Below, in pieces: positions 33,853-46,839 of a stretch of DNA of 46,839 bases (positions are counted from its first letter, which is position 1; every line of letters starts with the position of its first letter). The translations under genes and the position numbers were made by a program. Location: IMG/VR virus record IMGVR_UViG_3300048818_000120, positions 1 to 46,839 of that record; one strand, 5' to 3'. Under the pieces are notes generated by a model that ran no database searches, was not told where the DNA came from, and worked only from the letters and a program-made list of their open reading frames with translations. Origin of the DNA: a virus.

Positions 33853-34013
33853 ACCACTTGCATCGCTGAGACCACGCCCCATCTCCACCGGGGATCTGTC
33901 CCCTTGCCATTTAGGTTGCGCAAATGGAGCTGCACTCTGCGCAACACCATCTCCGCGCGGAACAACTCGTTCAGCCTTCGCTGCTCTGCCCGCACACCCG
34001 CTGACTTGGTCAT
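33711..34013 (-). CDS. Hypothetical protein convergent with endolysin
   Basis: 100 residues from the ATG at 34013, which overlaps the upstream stop (ATGA at 34010-34013). The first 40 residues (MTKSAGVRAEQRRLNELFRA) are helical and look real. The last 47 residues lie antisense to the endolysin gene (33711-33852), which is unusual. It may be a real gene that extends into its neighbour or a short gene ending in noise. Confidence 0.5.
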   Translation of the reverse strand: MTKSAGVRAEQRRLNELFRAEMVLRRVQLHLRNLNGKGTDPRWRWGVVSAMQVVHLAYCAVLDEQVRGELNSATSAARRATMPVNSTSTPLTRARTHLGN

Positions 34014-35104
34014 TCCCGCACCGCCGGAAATGCCTTGTGCTCTATGCCGTCCAGCAGCGCGCCCGCGGCCTTCCTGCCCACTCGGGTGATTGCTTGCGCG
34101 CTATCCGACCAATTAGTGAGCCAGTTTGTAAGTTGGCCATCGAAGCCAGCAAACCATGTCATTGACCCATCCAGGTTTACCGCTTGTGTCCCTTTTGGCT
34201 CCCTATAATCATCGGGGGCCCAGGGTGCCCACTCGCCCCATTGTTTGAAGAAGAAGGCAGTGTCGGTGACCTTGCACTGATCACGCAGTGCCCGCGCCCA
34301 ATCCGGATGCATCGGCCTCGCGCCTGGTCCGCTCTCCCCGCCGCAGATCACCCAGTCGATGCCGCTTAAATCCACAGTGCCAGGATCGAATAGCAACGGC
34401 TCAAAGGATACGAATCGCACGGCAGCCGGAACCTGTCGAAGAATGTCAATGCGTTGGTGTTGGTTGCCTTCGTCGCTCACGCCCAGCCACGCGTTCCGCA
34501 ACCTAACCCCAGTCAACCCATCATCGATTTGTTCCGGATAGGTAAACACCGCGCGCCCTCCCAGGAAATTCGATATCGCATCAACCGCTCGGAGTAAGCG
34601 AGCTAACAGGGCATCGCTGGCGCAATACTCCAGCATCTGCTCAGGCCGCTTGGTGAGTACCTGGAAGTCGTGCCACCAGCAGAGCGTCATCATCGCGAAA
34701 ACGCGGTCGCGCATTGCATCGGTAACCCACTCGCCGAAGAGATCAGACTGGTTCTCGACGAAGATGCGGCGCGGCGCGGGGGGAAGCTCCCCCCACTTCA
34801 ACGGCTGCAACAGCACCTTCTCATCCACGAAAGCCTCAACCAGATCACGCGAGCGCCGGTCATAGGGCAGGCCGGTTCCGTTCGCAGGCAGGCAGCGATG
34901 ATTATTGGTCTCCGCATAGCAGTTCTCGCATCCAGGCGAGACGTGCTCGCAGTGCGCCCCCACCCTGCCCGCCATCTTCTCCGCGATCTGCACCAGCGAT
35001 GTGTAACCCTTCTCCTTAGCTATCGATGGCGCATCCATTTTCACTCGCGCACGGATGGGCGACCATGTTGAGTCGCACCAAGCAATCTCTGTTGTTTTCC
35101 CCAT
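34010..35104 (-). CDS. Phage Gp37/Gp68 family protein (DUF5131)
   Basis: 364 residues from the ATG at 35104 with AAGGAG upstream. It begins MGKTTEIAWCDSTWSP and has three Cys in CEHVSPGCENC (residues 52-62), then FVENQSDLFGEWV, AWLGVSDE, ICGGESGPGARPM and FFFKQWGEW, all hallmarks of the family. Family members are common in phages and resemble radical-SAM proteins by the Cys cluster, but the activity is unknown. It is in the leftward module with the regulators. Confidence 0.9.
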   Translation of the reverse strand: MGKTTEIAWCDSTWSPIRARVKMDAPSIAKEKGYTSLVQIAEKMAGRVGAHCEHVSPGCENCYAETNNHRCLPANGTGLPYDRRSRDLVEAFVDEKVLLQPLKWGELPPAPRRIFVENQSDLFGEWVTDAMRDRVFAMMTLCWWHDFQVLTKRPEQMLEYCASDALLARLLRAVDAISNFLGGRAVFTYPEQIDDGLTGVRLRNAWLGVSDEGNQHQRIDILRQVPAAVRFVSFEPLLFDPGTVDLSGIDWVICGGESGPGARPMHPDWARALRDQCKVTDTAFFFKQWGEWAPWAPDDYREPKGTQAVNLDGSMTWFAGFDGQLTNWLTNWSDSAQAITRVGRKAAGALLDGIEHKAFPAVRE

Positions 35105-35604
35105 TTTCCTCTCCTTTTAGCCTTCTCCCGCAACCTGCGATCCGCTCCGCACATGTGCCTGGCAGCGTGCAGCACTTGGCGTTTCTGTTCTCGATCCAGA
35201 AAGGGTATAAGAGCGCGTACCTCGTCCATGAACGGCTCCGGCTCCGGGTTGATCTCCCCGCCGCCCAAGAACTCGAAGAGCGTAGAGCCATACAATTTGC
35301 ACAACCGTTCGAGCGACCCAGGGAGCGGCGTCCTGGTCAAGTTCTCCACCTTCGAGAAGAACGTGCGTGGCGTACCGTAAAGGGCACCCGCATCCTCTTG
35401 GGACAGATGCTTCCTGAGCCGCAATTCCCTAAGTGCGCGGGCCACGTACTGCGCCAACTCAGAGAATGGTGATGGCGCCTCAGGTTGCAACTCGGATGGA
35501 GCTTCGGCTACCAATCGCCTATGGCAGCGGCGGCACATTCCAGACGCGGTGTGGAATTGATTCAGGTCGCAATGAGGACAGCGTATGGCGAGGGCGGCGT
35601 TCAT
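35041..35604 (-). CDS. Zinc-ribbon and XRE-type HTH regulator
   Basis: 187 residues. C9, C12, C24 and C27 form an N-terminal zinc ribbon (RCPHCDLNQFHTASGMCRRC); residues 48-110 form a helix-turn-helix of XRE type (ALRELRLRKHLSQEDAGALY). The basic tail overlaps the start of the next gene by 64 nt. Its ATG overlaps the upstream stop as ATGA. Probably a transcriptional regulator of this module; the target is unknown. Confidence 0.85.
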   Translation of the reverse strand: MNAALAIRCPHCDLNQFHTASGMCRRCHRRLVAEAPSELQPEAPSPFSELAQYVARALRELRLRKHLSQEDAGALYGTPRTFFSKVENLTRTPLPGSLERLCKLYGSTLFEFLGGGEINPEPEPFMDEVRALIPFLDREQKRQVLHAARHMCGADRRLREKAKRRGKWGKQQRLLGATQHGRPSVRE

Positions 35605-40803: not shown

Positions 40804-41315
40804 CAACCTCACAGATAGCCCGTATGAGACCACCAATCAAAGAAGACACCCGAGTTCCACCCGCTGAAACTCTCCCGGCTAACGTCCATGCCGAGAGGAC
40901 CATCTTAGGCGCGATCCTGCTCGACAATGCCGCCCATTCCGAGGCCGCTGCAACGCTGGATTCAGACGATTTTATACTCGACTCGCATCGCCGCATTTTC
41001 CTGCGCATGACCGAGTTGATGAACGAAAACCATGCTGTCGATATTGTGACCTTGGCAGACAGACTGGCCTTTTGCAAGGAGCGGGATTCCATCGGCGGCA
41101 CGGCTTACCTGGCCTCGCTCACTGAGGGGTTGCCGCGCCGACCGGTCATAAAAGAATACATTGGAATCGTCAAGGAAAAGGCTAAATTAAGACGTATCAT
41201 GTTGGCATGCTCCGCTGCTATCGCGCAGGCCGCAGACCAATCCACCACCGCTTCTGACATCATTGAGCAGCTTGGGATAGGTGTGCGTGGAATCAAAGAG
41301 AAGAGGACACCATGA
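40800..41315 (+). CDS. DnaB-like N-terminal domain, no helicase domain
   Basis: 171 residues, ATGA overlap at both ends. Residues 22-150 follow the N-terminal domain of DnaB helicases (VHAERTILGAILLDNAAHSE, FILDSHRRIFLRMTELMNEN, VDIVTLADRL). The RecA-like ATPase with Walker A is absent. In DnaB this domain binds primase and helps ring formation. A freestanding copy could load, block or redirect the host helicase. The protein ends at KEKRTP, so the truncation is a natural end. Confidence 0.85.
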   Translation: MTTSQIARMRPPIKEDTRVPPAETLPANVHAERTILGAILLDNAAHSEAAATLDSDDFILDSHRRIFLRMTELMNENHAVDIVTLADRLAFCKERDSIGGTAYLASLTEGLPRRPVIKEYIGIVKEKAKLRRIMLACSAAIAQAADQSTTASDIIEQLGIGVRGIKEKRTP

Positions 41316-41950
41316 CATCTAGTGCAATATCGGTCTTGCCCCTGCGAGAGCCTGATTGGCTGGCCTTGAGGCTTCTACCCCCTTACCCCTGTGCGGAGGC
41401 TCTCAGGGCGATTCTGGCCCATCTGGAGGGAGGGGAACGATGGATTTACAGCATCCGAGGCGAATGTCTGAGGCTGTTTGACGAGCGACGGCTGTACATG
41501 GAGTTTACCGACCCGGCCACGAATCAGCCTTGTACCTGCACCGATCGGTTTCTCAAAGTCTACCTGCCTGACTCCTGGCGATATTGTGAGGAGGCTCTCA
41601 AGAACCGGCAAGCCCTCTTTGATTCCGTGCCCTTGGAATCCGCCGTCCGCATGACCAGAGCCAATCTGCGGCTCTTGGAGGGCGCCAGCGAGTCGGTACG
41701 GAAGTTGCCTGAGGTGCACGCTGCTGCGGAGAAGCAGACCCAAGAGCAATTTGCGGCCACTCTGAGCCAAGAGCCTTACAATCAGCATCTTGAGGCCAGA
41801 CGAACGCTCAAGTTCACATTTACTGCTGGCGAGGCTGAAATAGTTGAACAAGCCCTGGGAATTGTGGGAGAGCGGTGCGGAATCAGCGACCAATCGGGCG
41901 AACTGTTGGCGCTGGCTATCGACTACATAGCGGAGCAGGTAACGGCATGA
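41312..41950 (+). CDS. Hypothetical protein of the replication operon
   Basis: 212 residues, ATGA overlap. The central region is acidic and contains CTCTDRFLKVYL; the last 45 residues (KFTFTAGEAEIVEQALGIVG) resemble a small helical domain seen in phage proteins. It ends in EQVTA, as does the next protein. Function unknown; it lies directly after the DnaB-N gene. Confidence 0.78.
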   Translation: MTSSAISVLPLREPDWLALRLLPPYPCAEALRAILAHLEGGERWIYSIRGECLRLFDERRLYMEFTDPATNQPCTCTDRFLKVYLPDSWRYCEEALKNRQALFDSVPLESAVRMTRANLRLLEGASESVRKLPEVHAAAEKQTQEQFAATLSQEPYNQHLEARRTLKFTFTAGEAEIVEQALGIVGERCGISDQSGELLALAIDYIAEQVTA

Positions 41951-41951
41951 A
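41930..41951. repeat. 22-bp direct repeat, copy 1, at a gene junction
   Basis: Identical to 42331-42352. It spans the last codons of one gene (AEQVTA) and the overlapping ATGA start of the next (MK). Confidence 0.9.
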
Positions 41952-42351
41952 GCACACTGAAGAGGAGATGGAAATGGGAAATAAAACAGATCGACCTGAT
42001 CCAACGCCGAGGATGACCTATGAGGAGTGGATGGCGGAAGGCCAGAAGCGGTTCGGCACGGACTTCGAAACGTGGCGCTTTGTCTGCCCGATCTGCGGGA
42101 ACGTGGCGTCTGTCGCGGACTTCAGGCTGTTTAAAGATCGGGGAGCTACGCCCGACTCCGCGACCAACCAGTGTATCGGTCGATTTGACGGATCGACGAA
42201 CAGGGCATTTGGGAGTTCGCTGAAGGAACGCGGGAAGCCGTGCGATTACGCCCTTTTCGGCCTCTTCCGTCTGCCTGGTGTAATCATCGCAATGCCTGAT
42301 GGCAAAGAGCGGATGGCCTTCGCCTTCGGGGCGGAGCAGGTAACGGCATGA
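41947..42351 (+). CDS. VVA0879-family zinc-binding protein
   Basis: 134 residues, ATGA overlap at both ends. MTYEEWMAEGQKRFG, then FVCPICGNVASVADF (C47, C50) and NQCIGRFDGS match the VVA0879 family found in phages. The family has a conserved Cys pair and unknown function. It ends with AEQVTA, matching the preceding gene's end. Confidence 0.8.
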   Translation: MKHTEEEMEMGNKTDRPDPTPRMTYEEWMAEGQKRFGTDFETWRFVCPICGNVASVADFRLFKDRGATPDSATNQCIGRFDGSTNRAFGSSLKERGKPCDYALFGLFRLPGVIIAMPDGKERMAFAFGAEQVTA

Positions 42352-42352
42352 A
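42331..42352. repeat. 22-bp direct repeat, copy 2, at a gene junction
   Basis: Second copy of the 41930-41951 repeat, again covering EQVTA-stop and the ATGA start of the following gene. Confidence 0.9.
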
Positions 42353-42521
42353 ACACGCTGGAGGAAGGCCGAAAGAGCCGGTTGCGTTAGGGTGGGCTAT
42401 GCGTTTTGGGTTTCGAGTGAAGACCGGATACATTCATATTTTGACGCCTCGGCTTTGCCAGCAGCTTTGTTTATGCCACTCGGATGAGGCGAGACGGCTG
42501 ATTTTAGGGGTATCACGATGA
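42348..42521 (+). CDS. Very small Cys/basic protein
   Basis: 57 residues (MKHAGGRPKEPVALGWAMRF) between two ATGA overlaps. CQQLCLCHSDEARR may bind metal. Below the length of most annotation cut-offs, but supported by the unbroken overlap chain. Function unknown. Confidence 0.68.
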   Translation: MKHAGGRPKEPVALGWAMRFGFRVKTGYIHILTPRLCQQLCLCHSDEARRLILGVSR

Positions 42522-42823
42522 TTCGCACCCCTGAGCCCACTCCATCCGAGAAGCAAGCCCTGAGAGTCAAAGTGCAGGAGTTGGCCGGCGGACAGTGCGA
42601 GTTGCGGTTGCACAAACGGTGCCTCTACCCTCAAATTTTGCCGCTTAGTGGCGATCTGCTCTGGAGAGGGCATTTGGTTCACATCCGGGCGCGTTTAATT
42701 GGCGGGGAGTGGACAACGGAAAACTGCCTGTGGGGATGCGCCTTTTGCCATAACGGATCGTTGCACACCACCGGAACGCCAATCGATATGGAGGCTATTA
42801 TGCAAAGACGGAAAGGGCAGTGA
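42518..42823 (+). CDS. HNH endonuclease-like protein
   Basis: 101 residues. GGQCELRLHKRC gives two Cys (27, 35), then RGHLVHIRAR with His52 and His55, Asn69 in ENCLWGCAFCH, and Cys74, Cys77 and His78. This is the HNH beta-beta-alpha metal fold with zinc-binding Cys pairs. It may nick or cut DNA in recombination or packaging. ATGA upstream and TGATG to the next gene. Confidence 0.85.
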   Translation: MIRTPEPTPSEKQALRVKVQELAGGQCELRLHKRCLYPQILPLSGDLLWRGHLVHIRARLIGGEWTTENCLWGCAFCHNGSLHTTGTPIDMEAIMQRRKGQ

Positions 42824-43140
42824 TGAGCAAATACCACAACCGCCAAACCGCAGCGCGTGACGGCAAAGTCTTTGCCAGCCAGCGGGAGGCCCGCCGCTAC
42901 GAGGAATTGCTCCTGCTGGTCAAGTTGGGCGAGATTCACAACCTTGAGACTCAAGGCCGATGGGCGCTGATCCCTTCGCAGCCAGGTGAGCGCCGGATAG
43001 ATTATTTAGCCGACTTTCAGTATATCGACAGGGCAGGCAAAATCCACGTCGAGGACGCCAAGGGGATGCGAACCCAGGTCTACATTTTGAAGCGGAAGCT
43101 CATGTTGTATTTTCACAACATAACCATCGAAGAGGTCTGA
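42823..43140 (+). CDS. DUF1064 nuclease-like protein
   Basis: 105 residues from the ATG at 42823, overlapping the HNH stop as TGATG. It opens with MSKYHNRQTAARDGKVFASQ and contains REARRYEELLLL, IDYLADFQYIDR and VEDAKGMRT. These are hallmarks of DUF1064, a family with PD-(D/E)XK-like acidic and lysine residues, often near HNH and recombination genes. It ends the early operon. Confidence 0.85.
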   Translation: MSKYHNRQTAARDGKVFASQREARRYEELLLLVKLGEIHNLETQGRWALIPSQPGERRIDYLADFQYIDRAGKIHVEDAKGMRTQVYILKRKLMLYFHNITIEEV

Positions 43141-43154
43141 ACCGTTCTAAAATG

Positions 43155-43215
43155 TGACGTTAGCTCAGCCGGGGCGGGTCATACCGCTTCCAAATCTCGC
43201 CTCGCCATCATCATC
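43155..43215 (+). other. tRNA-like fragment
   Basis: TTAGCTCAGCCGG, then GCGGGTCATACCGC and TTCCAAATC recall a D arm, a CAT anticodon arm and a T arm, but D-stem pairing and acceptor stem fail. It partly overlaps the minus-strand gene ending at 43179. It may be a decayed tRNA or chance. Confidence 0.2.
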
Positions 43216-43334
43216 GCTTTACCTCGCATTTCAAGAGCGACCCAAAATGAATCTCCGCTCCAATCGTTGTAAGAGACCAGCCCGGTCTCGTTGGGATAAC
43301 CACTGAAGAGATTAGTCACTCTGACTTTTATCAT
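43179..43334 (-). CDS. Small hypothetical protein downstream of RNA candidate
   Basis: 51 residues from the ATG at 43334 with AAGGAGAG upstream (MIKVRVTNLFSGYPNETGLV). A beta-rich core and a basic helix (GKAMMMARRDLEAV). The structured leftward transcript upstream leads into it. Function unknown. Confidence 0.7.
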   Translation of the reverse strand: MIKVRVTNLFSGYPNETGLVSYNDWSGDSFWVALEMRGKAMMMARRDLEAV

Positions 43335-43364
43335 TCGACTCTCCTTAAAGACTTTGTTCTTCAA

Positions 43365-43757
43365 CTCCTATGCGGTACTGGTGAAGGTGGGGGGAAGGGT
43401 GTGGTTAACCCGGTCTCCCAGGACGGCCACTACGCCCGGCTATTGCCAAGCGCCTTTTCCCATGCGTAACCGGAGCCAGGCGAGGGGCAGTGTCTCCACT
43501 GCGGGCGGGTGTTTGCCGGGGACTGGTTTGACGCCTTAACCACCACGGGGGCATCCAACAGACTGAACCCCCGCACTCAGCTTATCCCGAAGGATTTAGG
43601 CGATTGGTCCAATTTGCTATCGAGGCTCCCCTGAGCGCACCGCTCTTCCCGCCCCGCCTGCCTTTCGCGCAGGATGCCCAGGCGCAAGATGGCGGAAACA
43701 TTGACTCGTGTCGAATTGTCAGTGATTTTCCTGTCATTCTCAAGTCCAAACTCTTGT
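43365..43757 (-). ncRNA. Candidate structured RNA, about 390 nt
   Basis: No gene fits this GC-rich region. On the minus strand it holds stems with stable loops: GCAGTG-GAGA-CACTGC (43502-43487, GNRA type), ATCC-TTCG-GGAT (43595-43584, UUCG), CCTGC-GCGAAAG-GCAGG (43673-43657), a G5/C5 stem (43572-43547) and an 8-bp helix, 43631-43638 with 43573-43580, that encloses a multi-arm domain. The loops are stable only when read on the minus strand. A promoter lies just upstream (43785-43758). It was compared from memory with RNase P, tmRNA, 6S and group I intron hallmarks and matches none. Confidence 0.6.
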
Positions 43758-43785
43758 AGAATAGCAAAAAATTTGGTATTGTCAA
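43758..43785 (-). promoter_or_regulatory. Promoter for the RNA candidate
   Basis: TTGACA (43785-43780), a 16-nt spacer and TATTCT (43763-43758) on the minus strand. The spacer is AT-rich. It is the best sigma70-like pair seen in the window and drives transcription into the structured region. Confidence 0.62.
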
Positions 43786-43883
43786 GTTGCGGGGTTCAGG
43801 TCCCAAACCTCATCCATTCTCGTCCAAGCACCGAAATGGAACCCCGCGTAAGATTCCACCCAAAACGTGCAATCGGCAGTAAG

Positions 43884-43911
43884 AAGGCTCCCGGAATCAA
43901 CCGGGAGCCTT
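43884..43911. terminator. Strong hairpin terminator between convergent units
   Basis: AAGGCTCCCGG-AATCAA-CCGGGAGCCTT, an 11-bp perfect stem with a 6-nt loop. It is followed by CGGTGTTTG on the plus strand. It lies just before the 3' end of a minus-strand gene, so it could stop transcription from both sides. The T-run is imperfect. Confidence 0.7.
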
Positions 43912-43913
43912 CG

Positions 43914-43933
43914 GTGTTTGTGCGCTACAATTG
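43914..43933 (+). repeat. 20-bp promoter-like repeat, copy 1
   Basis: GTGTTTGTGCGCTACAATTG, identical to 44161-44180. It carries TACAAT, a good -10 box, without a clear -35. It abuts the terminator hairpin. Confidence 0.7.
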
Positions 43934-44143
43934 GCTTGGGTTTGGTCGCTCTACGCGGATTTTCGCTTGAGGAAAATACTTCGCTAGGTGTTTAGCGCAG
44001 AGTATGGCCGCATAGTCCCGATCTTTAAGCGCCTCCGCTTCCGTGTCCCGCGCAGGGCCTTCCCTGCGTCCTTCAGGATCATCCCAGTAGGCATGAAACT
44101 TGCCGTCGCGCTCGCCTACGCCGAAATTAAACTCCATCTTCAT
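43925..44143 (-). CDS. Small hypothetical protein
   Basis: 72 residues from the ATG at 44143 with GAGAGGAA upstream (MKMEFNFGVGERDGKFHAYW). An acidic middle (DDPEGRREGPARDTEAEALK) and a basic end. No family recognised. An upstream ATG at 44197 has no Shine-Dalgarno. Confidence 0.72.
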   Translation of the reverse strand: MKMEFNFGVGERDGKFHAYWDDPEGRREGPARDTEAEALKDRDYAAILCAKHLAKYFPQAKIRVERPNPSQL

Positions 44144-44160
44144 GCAGTTCCTCTCTCTCA

Positions 44161-44180
44161 GTGTTTGTGCGCTACAATTG
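44161..44180 (+). promoter_or_regulatory. 20-bp promoter-like repeat, copy 2
   Basis: Same 20-mer as 43914-43933. TACAAT at 44173-44178 lies about 20 nt before the start of the membrane protein gene at 44197, consistent with a promoter for it. No -35 match is clear. Confidence 0.5.
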
Positions 44181-44196
44181 AAAACGAGGTGCCTCA

Positions 44197-44397
44197 ATGC
44201 TCGGAATCCTGATTACTTTCGTGGTTCTGCTCATCATCTTCAGCCTTCTCTGGTGGATTGTCAGCGTGCTACCCTTGCCTCCGCCAATCAACAGAATCGC
44301 CCAGGTCGTGATCGTCGTGCTGTTCTGCATCATCCTGATTTATATGCTCTTGCCGTATGCGGGAGGGTTTGGTGGGCCGCATCCACTGGTCAGGTAG
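44197..44397 (+). CDS. Small two-span membrane protein
   Basis: 66 residues with two hydrophobic spans (LGILITFVVLLIIFSLLWWI; VVIVVLFCIILIYMLL) around the loop PLPPPINRI. It resembles small bacterial membrane proteins of the Thivi_2564 type. It could be a second holin or a host-membrane modulator. It is alone on the plus strand among leftward genes. Confidence 0.72.
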   Translation: MLGILITFVVLLIIFSLLWWIVSVLPLPPPINRIAQVVIVVLFCIILIYMLLPYAGGFGGPHPLVR

Positions 44398-44398
44398 G

Positions 44399-44599
44399 CT
44401 ACCAGCGGATCAGTTCCCATATCGCGGCGCCGAACAGCAAAACGATTCCCACGCCGCAGATCAGGTTGATTCTGTTGATTCGCCGGCGAGAGCGGTTGTA
44501 GCCTTCCCGCAGGTCGTTAGCTCGAGGGTAGGGGCGTTCCCAGGCTGGCTCAGCCTCGGATGGGCGGCGGGATGTGCGGGCGCGGGTCAGGGGGTTCAT
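44399..44599 (-). CDS. Small basic protein with C-terminal membrane span
   Basis: 66 residues. A basic N-terminus (RSRRRINRINLICGVGIVLL) leads to one span and a short end. The ATG overlaps the upstream stop (ATGA). A late leftward gene; function unknown. Confidence 0.7.
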   Translation of the reverse strand: MNPLTRARTSRRPSEAEPAWERPYPRANDLREGYNRSRRRINRINLICGVGIVLLFGAAIWELIRW

Positions 44600-44850
44600 G
44601 GCTTCTCCTTCCCCAGCGCAAGGGCTGCGCGGGCTTGCTTGACTGCGGCGCTTACTGTTGGCTCAGGTCGTTTAAAGCCTTCCCAGTAAAAACCACAATC
44701 CACGCACCTGCGCCCAATTCCAGATTCTTCCCATGCTATGTGGATGCATGGCACACAGTCTTTGAGCAATTCCTTCAGCGCCCGTCTGAGCGCGTCTACT
44801 TGTAGCTCAAGGTTTTCTACGACCGAATATGGCAACTTCGTTTCACTCAT
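44596..44850 (-). CDS. Small Cys-containing protein
   Basis: 84 residues. CVPCIHI and RRCVDCGFYW give two C-x2-C pairs that could bind one zinc. Helical at both ends. Linked by ATGA overlaps on both sides. Function unknown. Confidence 0.75.
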   Translation of the reverse strand: MSETKLPYSVVENLELQVDALRRALKELLKDCVPCIHIAWEESGIGRRCVDCGFYWEGFKRPEPTVSAAVKQARAALALGKEKP

Positions 44851-45089
44851 GGCTTACCCCACAAATCAATCAAATTGGCGTAGTGCAGGATGGCGATGAT
44901 TGCGCCAATAATGAACGCCTCGCCCAAAAGCGCGAGACAGAAACCGCGCCAGGAGACTCCAGGGCGCTTTTCCGGCTCGTGTTCCCACTCAACAGGATCG
45001 TCCGTATCGGGCGGAAAACCGTAGAATGGAATAGGACCACGGGGGATGGGCACTCGGCGCTGGTCGGGTTGTCTCTCAAACGGAATCAT
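44847..45089 (-). CDS. Small membrane protein
   Basis: 80 residues. A Pro-rich soluble N-terminus (MIPFERQPDQRRVPIPRGPI) and one span (LALLGEAFIIGAIIAILHYA) near the C-terminus. It overlaps the upstream gene by 14 nt and the next by ATGA. Function unknown. Confidence 0.72.
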   Translation of the reverse strand: MIPFERQPDQRRVPIPRGPIPFYGFPPDTDDPVEWEHEPEKRPGVSWRGFCLALLGEAFIIGAIIAILHYANLIDLWGKP

Positions 45090-45228
45090 GAATCTCCCTT
45101 CTACGATCCCCGCTCTCCAATGCTTTCAAATCGCGGGATGCGCGAATGTTGACAAACAGGACGACAGGGGCGGCGACCAACAGTGCGCCCAGGAGCAGGC
45201 CGAGGGTCAGGCTGGCGAGGTCAATCAT
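45076..45228 (-). CDS. Small single-span membrane protein
   Basis: 50 residues, GGAGG before the ATG at 45228. It starts MIDLASLTLGLLLGALLVAA with one long span and a basic tail (SGDRRREIHDSV). Its start region is the part that was copied with the repeat genes: the same Shine-Dalgarno and ATG recur at 45989 and 46598 followed by unrelated codons. Confidence 0.72.
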   Translation of the reverse strand: MIDLASLTLGLLLGALLVAAPVVLFVNIRASRDLKALESGDRRREIHDSV

Positions 45229-45955
45229 GGGGAGCCTCCGGTTGCAGATAACGAGTGAATATCTCTTTCTGTTTTTCCCTGGCAGCATCCCAGGAAGCAG
45301 CCCCGGCAGCATCCCAGGCAGCATCCCAGGCAGCATCCCAGGAAGCATCCCTGGCAGCAGCCCTGGCATCCCAGGCAGCATCCCAGGCAGCATCCCTGGC
45401 AGCAGCCCAGGCAGCAGCCCAGGAAGCATCCCTGGCAGCAGCCCTGGCATCCCAGGCAGCATCCCAGGCAGCATCCCTGGCAGCAGCCCAGGCAGCAGCC
45501 CTGGCAGCCCAGGAAGCAGCCCTGGCAGCCCAGGAAGCAGCCCTGGCAGCCCAGGAAGCATCCCTGGCAGCCCAGGAAGCATCCCTGGCAACAGCCCTGG
45601 CAGCCCCGGCAGCAGCCCCGGCAGCAGCCATTTCCTCATGTGTAATCAGACCATTGGCGAAGTCGCGGCCCGCTTGAATAGCGAGTTCAGGCTCTTTATA
45701 TTGGGAGTATTTCTGCCAGAGTGGAAGGACTTCTTCGGCGAAGTCAGCAGCCATGAGCCGAGCTACTTTATCAGAGTTCTCAGTCGTGGCTTGCAACGCC
45801 CACAGCGCATCATCCAGGCCGTTGGTTTCCAGAATAGTTAGCAAGTTGATTGGCTCGGTATCCTCGACGCCTTTGAGGGCTTGGCGCAGGAATTTGTAGC
45901 GATGCTCGCAAGCGCCAGCGTTCCGCAAACGTTCAAATGTGGTGGTGAGTGTCAT
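45221..45955 (-). CDS. Ala/Trp-repeat protein, copy 1
   Basis: 244 residues from the ATG at 45955 with AAAGGA upstream. Residues 1-109 are the shared helical domain. Residues about 110-225 are a low-complexity run of Ala with Trp every four or eight residues plus Asp, Arg and Ser (DAAWDAAWDARAAARDASWA style), then the fixed end KQKEIFTRYLQPEAPHD. It has the longest tail of the two complete copies. It resembles proteins called putative immunity proteins. It is predicted to be a long amphipathic helix or coil. Confidence 0.85.
   Translation of the reverse strand: MTLTTTFERLRNAGACEHRYKFLRQALKGVEDTEPINLLTILETNGLDDALWALQATTENSDKVARLMAADFAEEVLPLWQKYSQYKEPELAIQAGRDFANGLITHEEMAAAGAAAGAARAVARDASWAARDASWAARAASWAARAASWAARAAAWAAARDAAWDAAWDARAAARDASWAAAWAAARDAAWDAAWDARAAARDASWDAAWDAAWDAAGAASWDAAREKQKEIFTRYLQPEAPHD
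45277..45634. repeat. Repeat array encoding the tail of copy 1
   Basis: About 360 nt of CCTGGCAGC, CCCAGGCAGC and CCAGGAAGC units with longer repeat blocks inside (for example 45343-45414 resembles 45427-45498). Other frames give long collagen-like ORFs, which are artefacts of the repeat. Confidence 0.9.
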
Positions 45956-45989
45956 GGTGTCCTTTCTTGGTTCTCCGCCGGTCAATCAT
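45933..45989 (-). pseudogene. Duplicated start of the membrane gene, remnant 1
   Basis: The Shine-Dalgarno and MID codons of the gene at 45228 recur here, then run into unrelated codons for 18 residues (RRRTKKGHHDTHHHI). It marks the junction of the tandem duplication. Confidence 0.55.
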
Positions 45990-46563
45990 GGGGAGCCTCC
46001 GGTTGCAGATAACGAGTGAATATCTCTTTCTGTTTTTCCCTGGCAGCAGCCCTGGCAGCAGCCCTGGCAGCAGCCCTGGCAGCAGCCCAGGCAGCAGCCC
46101 CGGCAGCAGCCCCGGCAGCAGCCCAGGCAGCATCCCAGGCAGCATCCCTGGCAGCAGCCCAGGCAGCAGCCCTGGCAGCCCAGGAAGCATCCCTGGCAAC
46201 AGCCCTGGCAGCCCCGGCAGCAGCCCCGGCAGCAGCCATTTCCTCATGTGTAATCAGACCATTGGCGAAGTCGCGGCCCGCTTGAATAGCGAGTTCAGGC
46301 TCTTTATATTGGGAGTATTTCTGCCAGAGTGGAAGGACTTCTTCGGCGAAGTCAGCAGCCATGAGCCGAGCTACTTTATCAGAGTTCTCAGTCGTGGCTT
46401 GCAACGCCCACAGCGCATCATCCAGGCCGTTGGTTTCAAGAATAGTTAGCAAGTTGATTGGCTCGGTATCCTCGACGCCTTTGAGGGCTTGGCGCAGGAA
46501 TTTGTAGCGATGCTCGCAAGCGCCAGCGTTCCGCAAACGTTCAAATGTGGTGGTGAGTGTCAT
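45982..46563 (-). CDS. Ala/Trp-repeat protein, copy 2
   Basis: 193 residues from the ATG at 46563. The N-domain is the same as in copy 1 apart from one synonymous base, and the C-terminal end (KQKEIFTRYLQPEAPHD) is identical. The repeat tail is about 50 residues shorter and richer in AAA and GAAA units. The tail length difference with an unchanged domain points to repeat slippage or unequal exchange. Confidence 0.85.
   Translation of the reverse strand: MTLTTTFERLRNAGACEHRYKFLRQALKGVEDTEPINLLTILETNGLDDALWALQATTENSDKVARLMAADFAEEVLPLWQKYSQYKEPELAIQAGRDFANGLITHEEMAAAGAAAGAARAVARDASWAARAAAWAAARDAAWDAAWAAAGAAAGAAAWAAARAAARAAARAAAREKQKEIFTRYLQPEAPHD
46041..46231. repeat. Repeat array encoding the tail of copy 2
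   Basis: About 190 nt of CCTGGCAGC and related units, shorter than the array of copy 1 and different in order except for its right end, which matches copies 1 and 3. Confidence 0.9.
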
Positions 46564-46598
46564 TTGATTCCTTTCTTGGTTCTCCGCCGGTCAATCAT
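46560..46598 (-). pseudogene. Duplicated start of the membrane gene, remnant 2
   Basis: Second short copy: MIDRRRTKKGIK, 12 codons, with its stop overlapping the ATG of copy 2 (ATGA at 46560-46563). It keeps the GGAGG site, so ribosomes could pass from copy 3 into copy 2. Confidence 0.5.
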
Positions 46599-46839
46599 GG
46601 GGAGCCTCCGGTTGCAGATAACGAGTGAATATCTCTTTCTGTTTTTCCCTGGCAGCAGCCCCGGCAGCATCCCAGGCAGCATCCCAGGCAGCATCCCAGG
46701 AAGCATCCCTGGCAGCAGCCCAGGCAGCATCCCAGGCAGCATCCCAGGCAGCATCCCAGGAAGCATCCCTGGCAGCCCCGGCAGCATCCCAGGCAGCATC
46801 CCAGGCAGCATCCCAGGAAGCATCCCTGGCAGCAGCCCT
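46591..46839 (-). CDS. Ala/Trp-repeat protein, copy 3, C-terminal part
   Basis: 83 codons in frame to the right edge, ending in KQKEIFTRYLQPEAPHD and TGA at 46593-46591. The tail here is mostly AAWD-type units. It joins the N-terminal part at 2-394 when the ends overlap by CCCT, giving a 212-residue protein. Confidence 0.82.
   Translation of the reverse strand, partial: RAAARDASWDAAWDAAWDAAGAARDASWDAAWDAAWDAAWAAARDASWDAAWDAAWDAAGAAAREKQKEIFTRYLQPEAPHD
46649..46839. repeat. Repeat array encoding the tail of copy 3
   Basis: About 190 nt of near-periodic units. Blocks such as 46664-46711 and 46724-46771 are almost the same. The window ends inside it. Confidence 0.9.

Follow-up and report, generated by a model that had tools for sequence, protein, structure and literature searches.

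We found that a stretch of phage DNA without a plausible gene almost certainly specifies a structured RNA. The window analyzed here is the whole 46,839-nt stretch of IMG/VR virus record IMGVR_UViG_3300048818_000120, and the element, a folded RNA gene of about 385 nt that encodes no protein, lies on its minus strand (43752 to 43367) behind a sigma-70-type promoter. The minus-strand structure, the noncoding character, the conservation limited to the element, the absence of an Rfam match, and the variable neighborhood are computed rather than inferred. Identity of 82 to 88% among phages that share little other DNA argues for selection as an RNA and for apparent movement of the RNA by itself. We think it probable that the element is an autonomous, portable phage RNA of an undescribed family that carries passenger genes and acts in trans, the action in trans being an inference, and we favor this reading over a pure leader. 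To our knowledge, large structured RNAs have been described from phages only rarely, and GOLLD and ROOL, the most familiar of them, still lack a known function. What a phage can do with a large folded RNA is now a directly testable question: the element brings a compact gene of 385 nt that has its own promoter, together with natural variants and a covariance model, currently spanning 169 nt.

The element is carried by seven IMG/VR records (loci L073 to L079), with DNA identity of 82 to 88% over 239 to 432 nt. We scanned IMG/VR with the plus-strand pseudo-translation of the element, which served merely as degenerate DNA probes, and the DNA matches cover window positions 43791 to 43331, up to 432 nt. 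A second, independent pattern from a loop region, AAGGCGTCA-N{5,12}-CCNNGCAAAC, recovered these seven records precisely; its 26 further matches all lay outside the family. The original prediction had looked to homologous phage regions for covarying pairs; these regions were found, and they show compensatory pairs, tetraloop exchange, and minus-strand wobble pairs. The RNA is carried by four lineages, namely, the window, G036/G037, G038, and G039 to G042, where each locus corresponds to one record (L073 is G036, and L076 to L079 are G039 to G042). The sample is limited to about six distinct sequences from these four lineages, and many pairs never vary.

The RNA spans the region from the predicted 5' end to a conserved GCATAGG. 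A promoter had been predicted immediately upstream, and it is present on the minus strand (43785 to 43758): TTGACA at 43785 to 43780, a 16-nt spacer, and TATTCT at 43763 to 43758, with TG preceding the -10 element. With 10 of 12 matches, it ranks best among the 6 promoter-like sites in 41000 to 46839, where shuffles gave 1.9 sites. The sigma-70-type reading is an assumption. The position of the -35 and -10 elements is kept in homologues, as TTGACT-17-TATTCT in L074 and with TTGACG in L076 and L078/L079; the promoter is weak in L073 and L075. Transcription is inferred, without transcript data, to start near 43752 and to proceed leftward from the RNA's own promoter. Similarity among the homologues has its edges at the promoter and 5' end on one side and at GCATAGG on the other, and conservation in the alignment runs from near TGCAA, where transcription is predicted to start, to GCATAGG. 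No terminator after the RNA marks its 3' end. The RNA is followed on the same strand by a spacer with a Shine-Dalgarno sequence (GAACAAAGUCUUUAAGGAGA; 43335 to 43366), which resembles the spacer of L076/L078 despite the different gene behind it.

Several repeats lie upstream of the promoter. Between the upstream gene and the promoter is a 12-bp perfect hairpin (43883 to 43912); TT follows it on the minus strand, and on the plus strand its score is terminator-like. A 23-nt direct repeat, TCRGTGTTTGTGCGCTACAATTG, adjoins this hairpin, with its copies at 43911 to 43933 and 44158 to 44180, the ends of a 72-aa gene. In addition, a 9-bp inverted repeat, GCGGGGTTC and GAACCCCGC at 43789 to 43797 and 43839 to 43847, ends 3 nt before the -35 element and is a possible operator.

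The original prediction rested on tetraloop-capped stems that were said to be stable only in the minus sense. For the tetraloops, this held. There are 4 such stems of at least 4 bp on the minus strand (UUCG, two GAGA, and UCCG) versus 0.47 expected (0 of 500 shuffles), and 1 on the plus strand versus 0.41 expected. The element tops about 240 minus-strand bins of its size for tetraloop stems. However, because the site had been chosen for such stems, their count alone is not decisive. For folding energy, the claim did not hold: the single-sequence energy was like that of shuffles and alike for the two strands (-154.8 and -153.6 kcal/mol; z of -0.35 and -0.29), and sliding-window folding energy gave no support either. 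Folding energy alone would have led us to reject the RNA; a reader working from the letters spotted a real RNA by its tetraloop stems despite the silence of the energy.

We aligned the distinct homologues by hand, helix by helix, and observed that 357 of 375 cells at 56 pairs were paired. Compensatory double changes occurred at 9 pairs, in helices P1, P3, P4, P6, and P10. There were 43 G.U cells versus 5 A.C cells, an asymmetry that identifies the minus strand as the RNA. P3 and P10 depend on a hand alignment that was fitted to the structure. As a control that needed no manual alignment, we counted seven helices on an unedited MAFFT alignment. There, the covariation score was 0.172 versus 0.123 ± 0.010 (0 of 500), the doubly changed cells numbered 8 versus 3.1 ± 1.3 (0 of 500), and the pairing of 96% dropped to 27 to 42% when the helices were slid by 1 to 3 columns. 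The number of doubly changed pairs on this alignment, 3 versus 2.2, was not significant in itself. The consensus fold (alifold) reached -104.5 kcal/mol versus -82.6 ± 5.8 kcal/mol for column shuffles (0 of 200; z of -3.8). The plus-sense consensus fold was also strong (z of -3.2), and therefore it is the wobble pairs and loops, rather than the consensus-fold test, that assign the strand. Tetraloops are exchanged among homologues, UUCG with GUGA, GCAA, or GGAA and GAGA with GAAA or GUGA.

The helices, all read on the minus strand, are predicted to fold from the very 5' end of the RNA into a multihairpin body. The 5' end forms P1, 43746 to 43752 with 43675 to 43681, where one pair is seen as U.G, A-U, C-G, and G-C. 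P2 (43711 to 43722) is a small hairpin, CYGA-CAAU-UCGR, and P3 (43657 to 43673) is a GAAA-capped hairpin with three consecutive compensatory pairs in L075. P4 (43633 to 43645) is a 5-bp hairpin, GAGYG-GUG-CGCUY, with one G-C to A-U exchange. An 8-bp helix of 43573 to 43580 with 43631 to 43638, which had been proposed to enclose a multiarm domain, is not supported. Although it is present, shuffles yield helices of 8 bp or more about as often (18 ± 5 versus 23 here), and L076 to L079 break it, with AA opposite CC; P4, which lies at the same place and shows its exchange, is supported and replaces it.

P5 (43584 to 43595) keeps its AUCC/GGAU stem, with one mismatch in L076, around a loop of UUCG, UUAG, GUGA, GCAA, or GGAA. 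P6 (43546 to 43573), CGGGGG/CCCCCG, has a G-C to C-G exchange, and in the window one base is missing on each side, from the same pair. RNAalifold also proposed an alternative long arm, CUGGACC/GGUUCAG, which would clash with P6 unless it is a pseudoknot. P7 (43524 to 43542) reads UGGUU-AAGGCGUCA-RACCA; P8 (43487 to 43502), GCAGUG-GAGA-CACUGC, is invariant in all homologues; and P9 (43435 to 43450) is a weak hairpin around GGC-AAUA-GCC. P10 (43409 to 43422) has two compensatory pairs and a 1-bp extension, and in all homologues but L073 it presents a GNRA loop (GAGA, GAAA, or GUGA) on a changing stem. By inference, the GNRA loops would probably dock internally or bind a protein. The conserved C-rich 3' stretch (ACACCCUUCCCCCCACCUUCACCA...GCAUAGG; 43367 to 43400) is mostly unpaired in the models; it is a candidate interaction site and the most obvious contact, a function that is inferred.

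The copy in L073 (G036) has a poor promoter, UUAG in place of UUCG, and a broken P10, and it may be decaying; its sister G037 looks intact. About 40 nt past the RNA in L073, the 3' end of the convergent terL holds TTCCCTGAGTGCACCAC (read on the RNA strand), which is complementary along 17 nt to GTGGTGCGCTCAGGGGA of the RNA itself and is absent in L074. This may be a relic of an insertion or of gene conversion.

When the window phage was compared by BLASTN with the complete records G037, G038, G039, G041, and G042, the element was the only similarity found; G036 shares a few other short stretches with the window. Between the window and G038, structural proteins show 23 to 46% identity, and G037, G039, and G041 have no more than one or a few proteins detectably in common with the window. 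A closely similar RNA in otherwise unrelated phages points, as far as sequence comparison can tell, to an RNA passed among phages. None of the 22 terminase relatives of the window (68 to 88%) has the RNA in the sequence available, although several of these contigs are fragments. Thus, the RNA is accessory. BLASTN against 50,697 phage records and 72,556 plasmid records gave no match to the element, and 17-mer patterns gave chance matches only, both of those inspected falling in coding DNA. With the 72-aa upstream gene and DUF1064 as queries, we found no RNA-bearing relatives, and two scans of genome contigs found no prophage or host relatives.

In the window, the RNA leads toward a 51-aa gene with a strong Shine-Dalgarno sequence (43179 to 43334, minus strand), a co-oriented passenger. 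That gene, already noted in the original prediction, is real: its homologues are 75% identical in L008 and 46 to 47% identical in L075 (G038). It matches no Pfam family, and the predicted protein fold is too poor for use (pLDDT of 63). A search with the gene gave a single relative, on a contig beginning 39 nt upstream, and the gene is missing from the longer terminase-relative contigs searched. The gene behind the RNA belongs to the 51-aa family in the window and G038 lineages, and the gene directly behind it in G039 to G041 is an AntA/AntB antirepressor (PF08346; E of 1.3e-29). In G036/G037, no co-oriented gene lies behind the RNA, which faces the 3' end of the convergent terL. Thus, the downstream gene is exchangeable or absent across lineages, and the RNA is not simply the leader of one gene. 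G037 keeps the promoter, P1, and P10 intact without a gene behind the RNA, so the RNA seems to be of value by itself. A Dps/ferritin-like gene (PF00210; E of 4.5e-13) is found on the opposite strand, upstream of and near the RNA, in L076 to L079.

The original prediction had left the choice between an independent RNA and a very long leader. With G037 and the differing downstream genes, the evidence leans toward an independent RNA that is often cotranscribed with a gene. A very long cis-acting 5' leader, whose fold would sense a ligand, a protein, temperature, or the state of the ribosome and would set translation or read-through as one control cassette before different genes, is a possibility that we regard as unlikely but not negligible. 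It would account for the fact that, in the window, G038, and G039 to G041, an open reading frame (ORF) with a Shine-Dalgarno sequence begins about 30 to 45 nt past the RNA with no terminator in between, and for a spacer that is alike in the window and L076/L078 though the genes differ. It could also use the 5' arm of P7, GUGGUUAA, as a possible switch, since this arm pairs either locally or with UUAACCAC near the 3' end. However, no conserved pairing joins the RNA body to the Shine-Dalgarno region, the downstream genes have no evident common function, and a leader or riboswitch should always lie upstream of a co-oriented gene, which is not the case in G036/G037.

One point against an autonomous RNA with passenger genes is that in three of the four lineages a gene follows the RNA immediately, which is what a leader would show. 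Such a gene is frequent and its spacer is related, which leads us to suspect that the transcript commonly acts as an mRNA too. In the mechanism that we propose, several unrelated tailed phages would carry the RNA gene as a portable "moron" module, and the folded RNA itself would be the selected product, presumed to act in trans in the infected cell. Without a terminator, the transcript in most lineages would read into the passenger gene (for the 51-aa protein or the AntA antirepressor), an arrangement that we infer to be a dual small RNA and messenger. Host targets can only be imagined, examples being ribosomes, RNA polymerase, or a defense system. Whether this amounts to a new class of autonomous mobile phage RNA, in which the 385-nt RNA is the cargo, is retained by unrelated phages without regard to any protein, acts in trans on the host, and has exchangeable passenger genes, is to us evenly balanced.

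The antirepressor raises the alternative of an antisense-type immunity RNA that, like c4 of P1 or IsrK of Gifsy-1, would control antirepressor synthesis by base pairing. Precedents have been described: c4 of P1/P7, at 77 nt, pairs with the region of the ant ribosome-binding site (RBS), and IsrK is both a small RNA and a messenger, with the antirepressor gene anrP downstream (PMC12197685). As with c4, a phage RNA here lies beside an antirepressor gene, the AntA/AntB gene directly downstream in G039 to G041. However, this is the case in only one of the four lineages, the element is 385 nt long and has no match to C4 in Rfam, and there is no consistent complementarity to the spacer or RBS across homologues. 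A c4-like action on the antirepressor was dropped after the test of RBS complementarity gave no support, and we consider the antisense reading improbable. IsrK is a parallel in arrangement only; it is 217 nt long, and its sequence relation to the element was compared via Rfam only.

The expectation that the element matches no known large RNA class was borne out. A covariance search of the window against Rfam 15 (4,227 families, including GOLLD, ROOL, OLE, HEARO, C4, tmRNA, RNase P, and introns) found nothing at the gathering threshold. At E values up to 5, the region 43150 to 44200 gave only two archaeal snoRNA chance matches, both outside the element, and the homologue loci gave none at E values up to 1. 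As far as Rfam 15 and the searched open-access literature show, the RNA family is undescribed, and we file it as a new family within a known kind, the phage-borne structured RNAs. GOLLD and ROOL are nearest in kind. Members of GOLLD are often longer than 800 nt, a homo-oligomeric RNA cage is a feature of GOLLD and ROOL, and their location near tRNA islands is frequent but not obligatory. Both are large structured RNAs of phages and prophages, of unknown function and often near tRNA islands (PMC12286853). In contrast, the element has no sequence or covariance match to them, is only about 385 nt long, and lies in a 46.8-kb window in which we found no tRNA or tmRNA genes. HEARO (OMEGA-nickase RNA), with a 343-nt example (PMC12286853), is similar in size and sometimes has an ORF behind it. 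However, the element does not match it in Rfam, and no IscB/IsrB-type nuclease ORF lies beside the element, where we found the 51-aa family without a Pfam match, the AntA antirepressor, or nothing. A tmRNA was also rejected: there was no Rfam or tRNA-like (ARAGORN) match, and in L075 an insertion interrupts the GCAAAC... frame.

Conservation at the DNA level and occurrence in otherwise unrelated phages would also fit a DNA site. A replication origin or a recombination or packaging site, whose inverted repeats mimic RNA stems, is nonetheless very improbable. We observed an excess of G.U over A.C (43 versus 5), exchange of GNRA and UUCG loops, and a promoter that keeps its position, features that one would look for in an RNA but not in a DNA element.

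The prediction that about 390 nt lack a plausible gene agrees with the absence of a codon-usage signal in any frame of the element. Every frame of every homologue has stops, and none stays open. Gaps between homologues are often 1, 2, 4, or 8 nt, and the indels of 1 to 2 nt break every frame. We saw no clear three-base periodicity at variable positions, and no frame of the element matched a PHROG better than E of 0.08. Codon-like substitutions or a lack of covariation would have refuted the original prediction; both were examined, and neither was the case. A decayed or undetected protein gene can scarcely be entertained, since the 77 to 88% matches of the plus-strand pseudo-translation reflect DNA conservation and stand against stops in all frames, 1- to 2-nt indels, and the lack of periodicity, codon signal, and PHROG matches.

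Two other regions of the window drew our attention. Window positions 45221 to 46823 (minus strand) hold tandem gene copies about 600 bp apart, which start with MTLTTTFERLRNAGACEHRYKFLRQAL... and each end in alanine- and tryptophan-rich repeats (ARDAAWDAAWDAA); other frames across these copies read as LPGLLPGM and SPGSSPG repeats. A relative of this gene lies in G036 at about 30.2 to 30.7 kb (66% identity). At 34010 to 35604 (minus strand), a 364-aa ORF, which by eye only resembles the phage Gp37/Gp68 (DUF5131) family, overlaps a gene for a helix-turn-helix (HTH)-like regulator and has a 53%-identical relative in G001.
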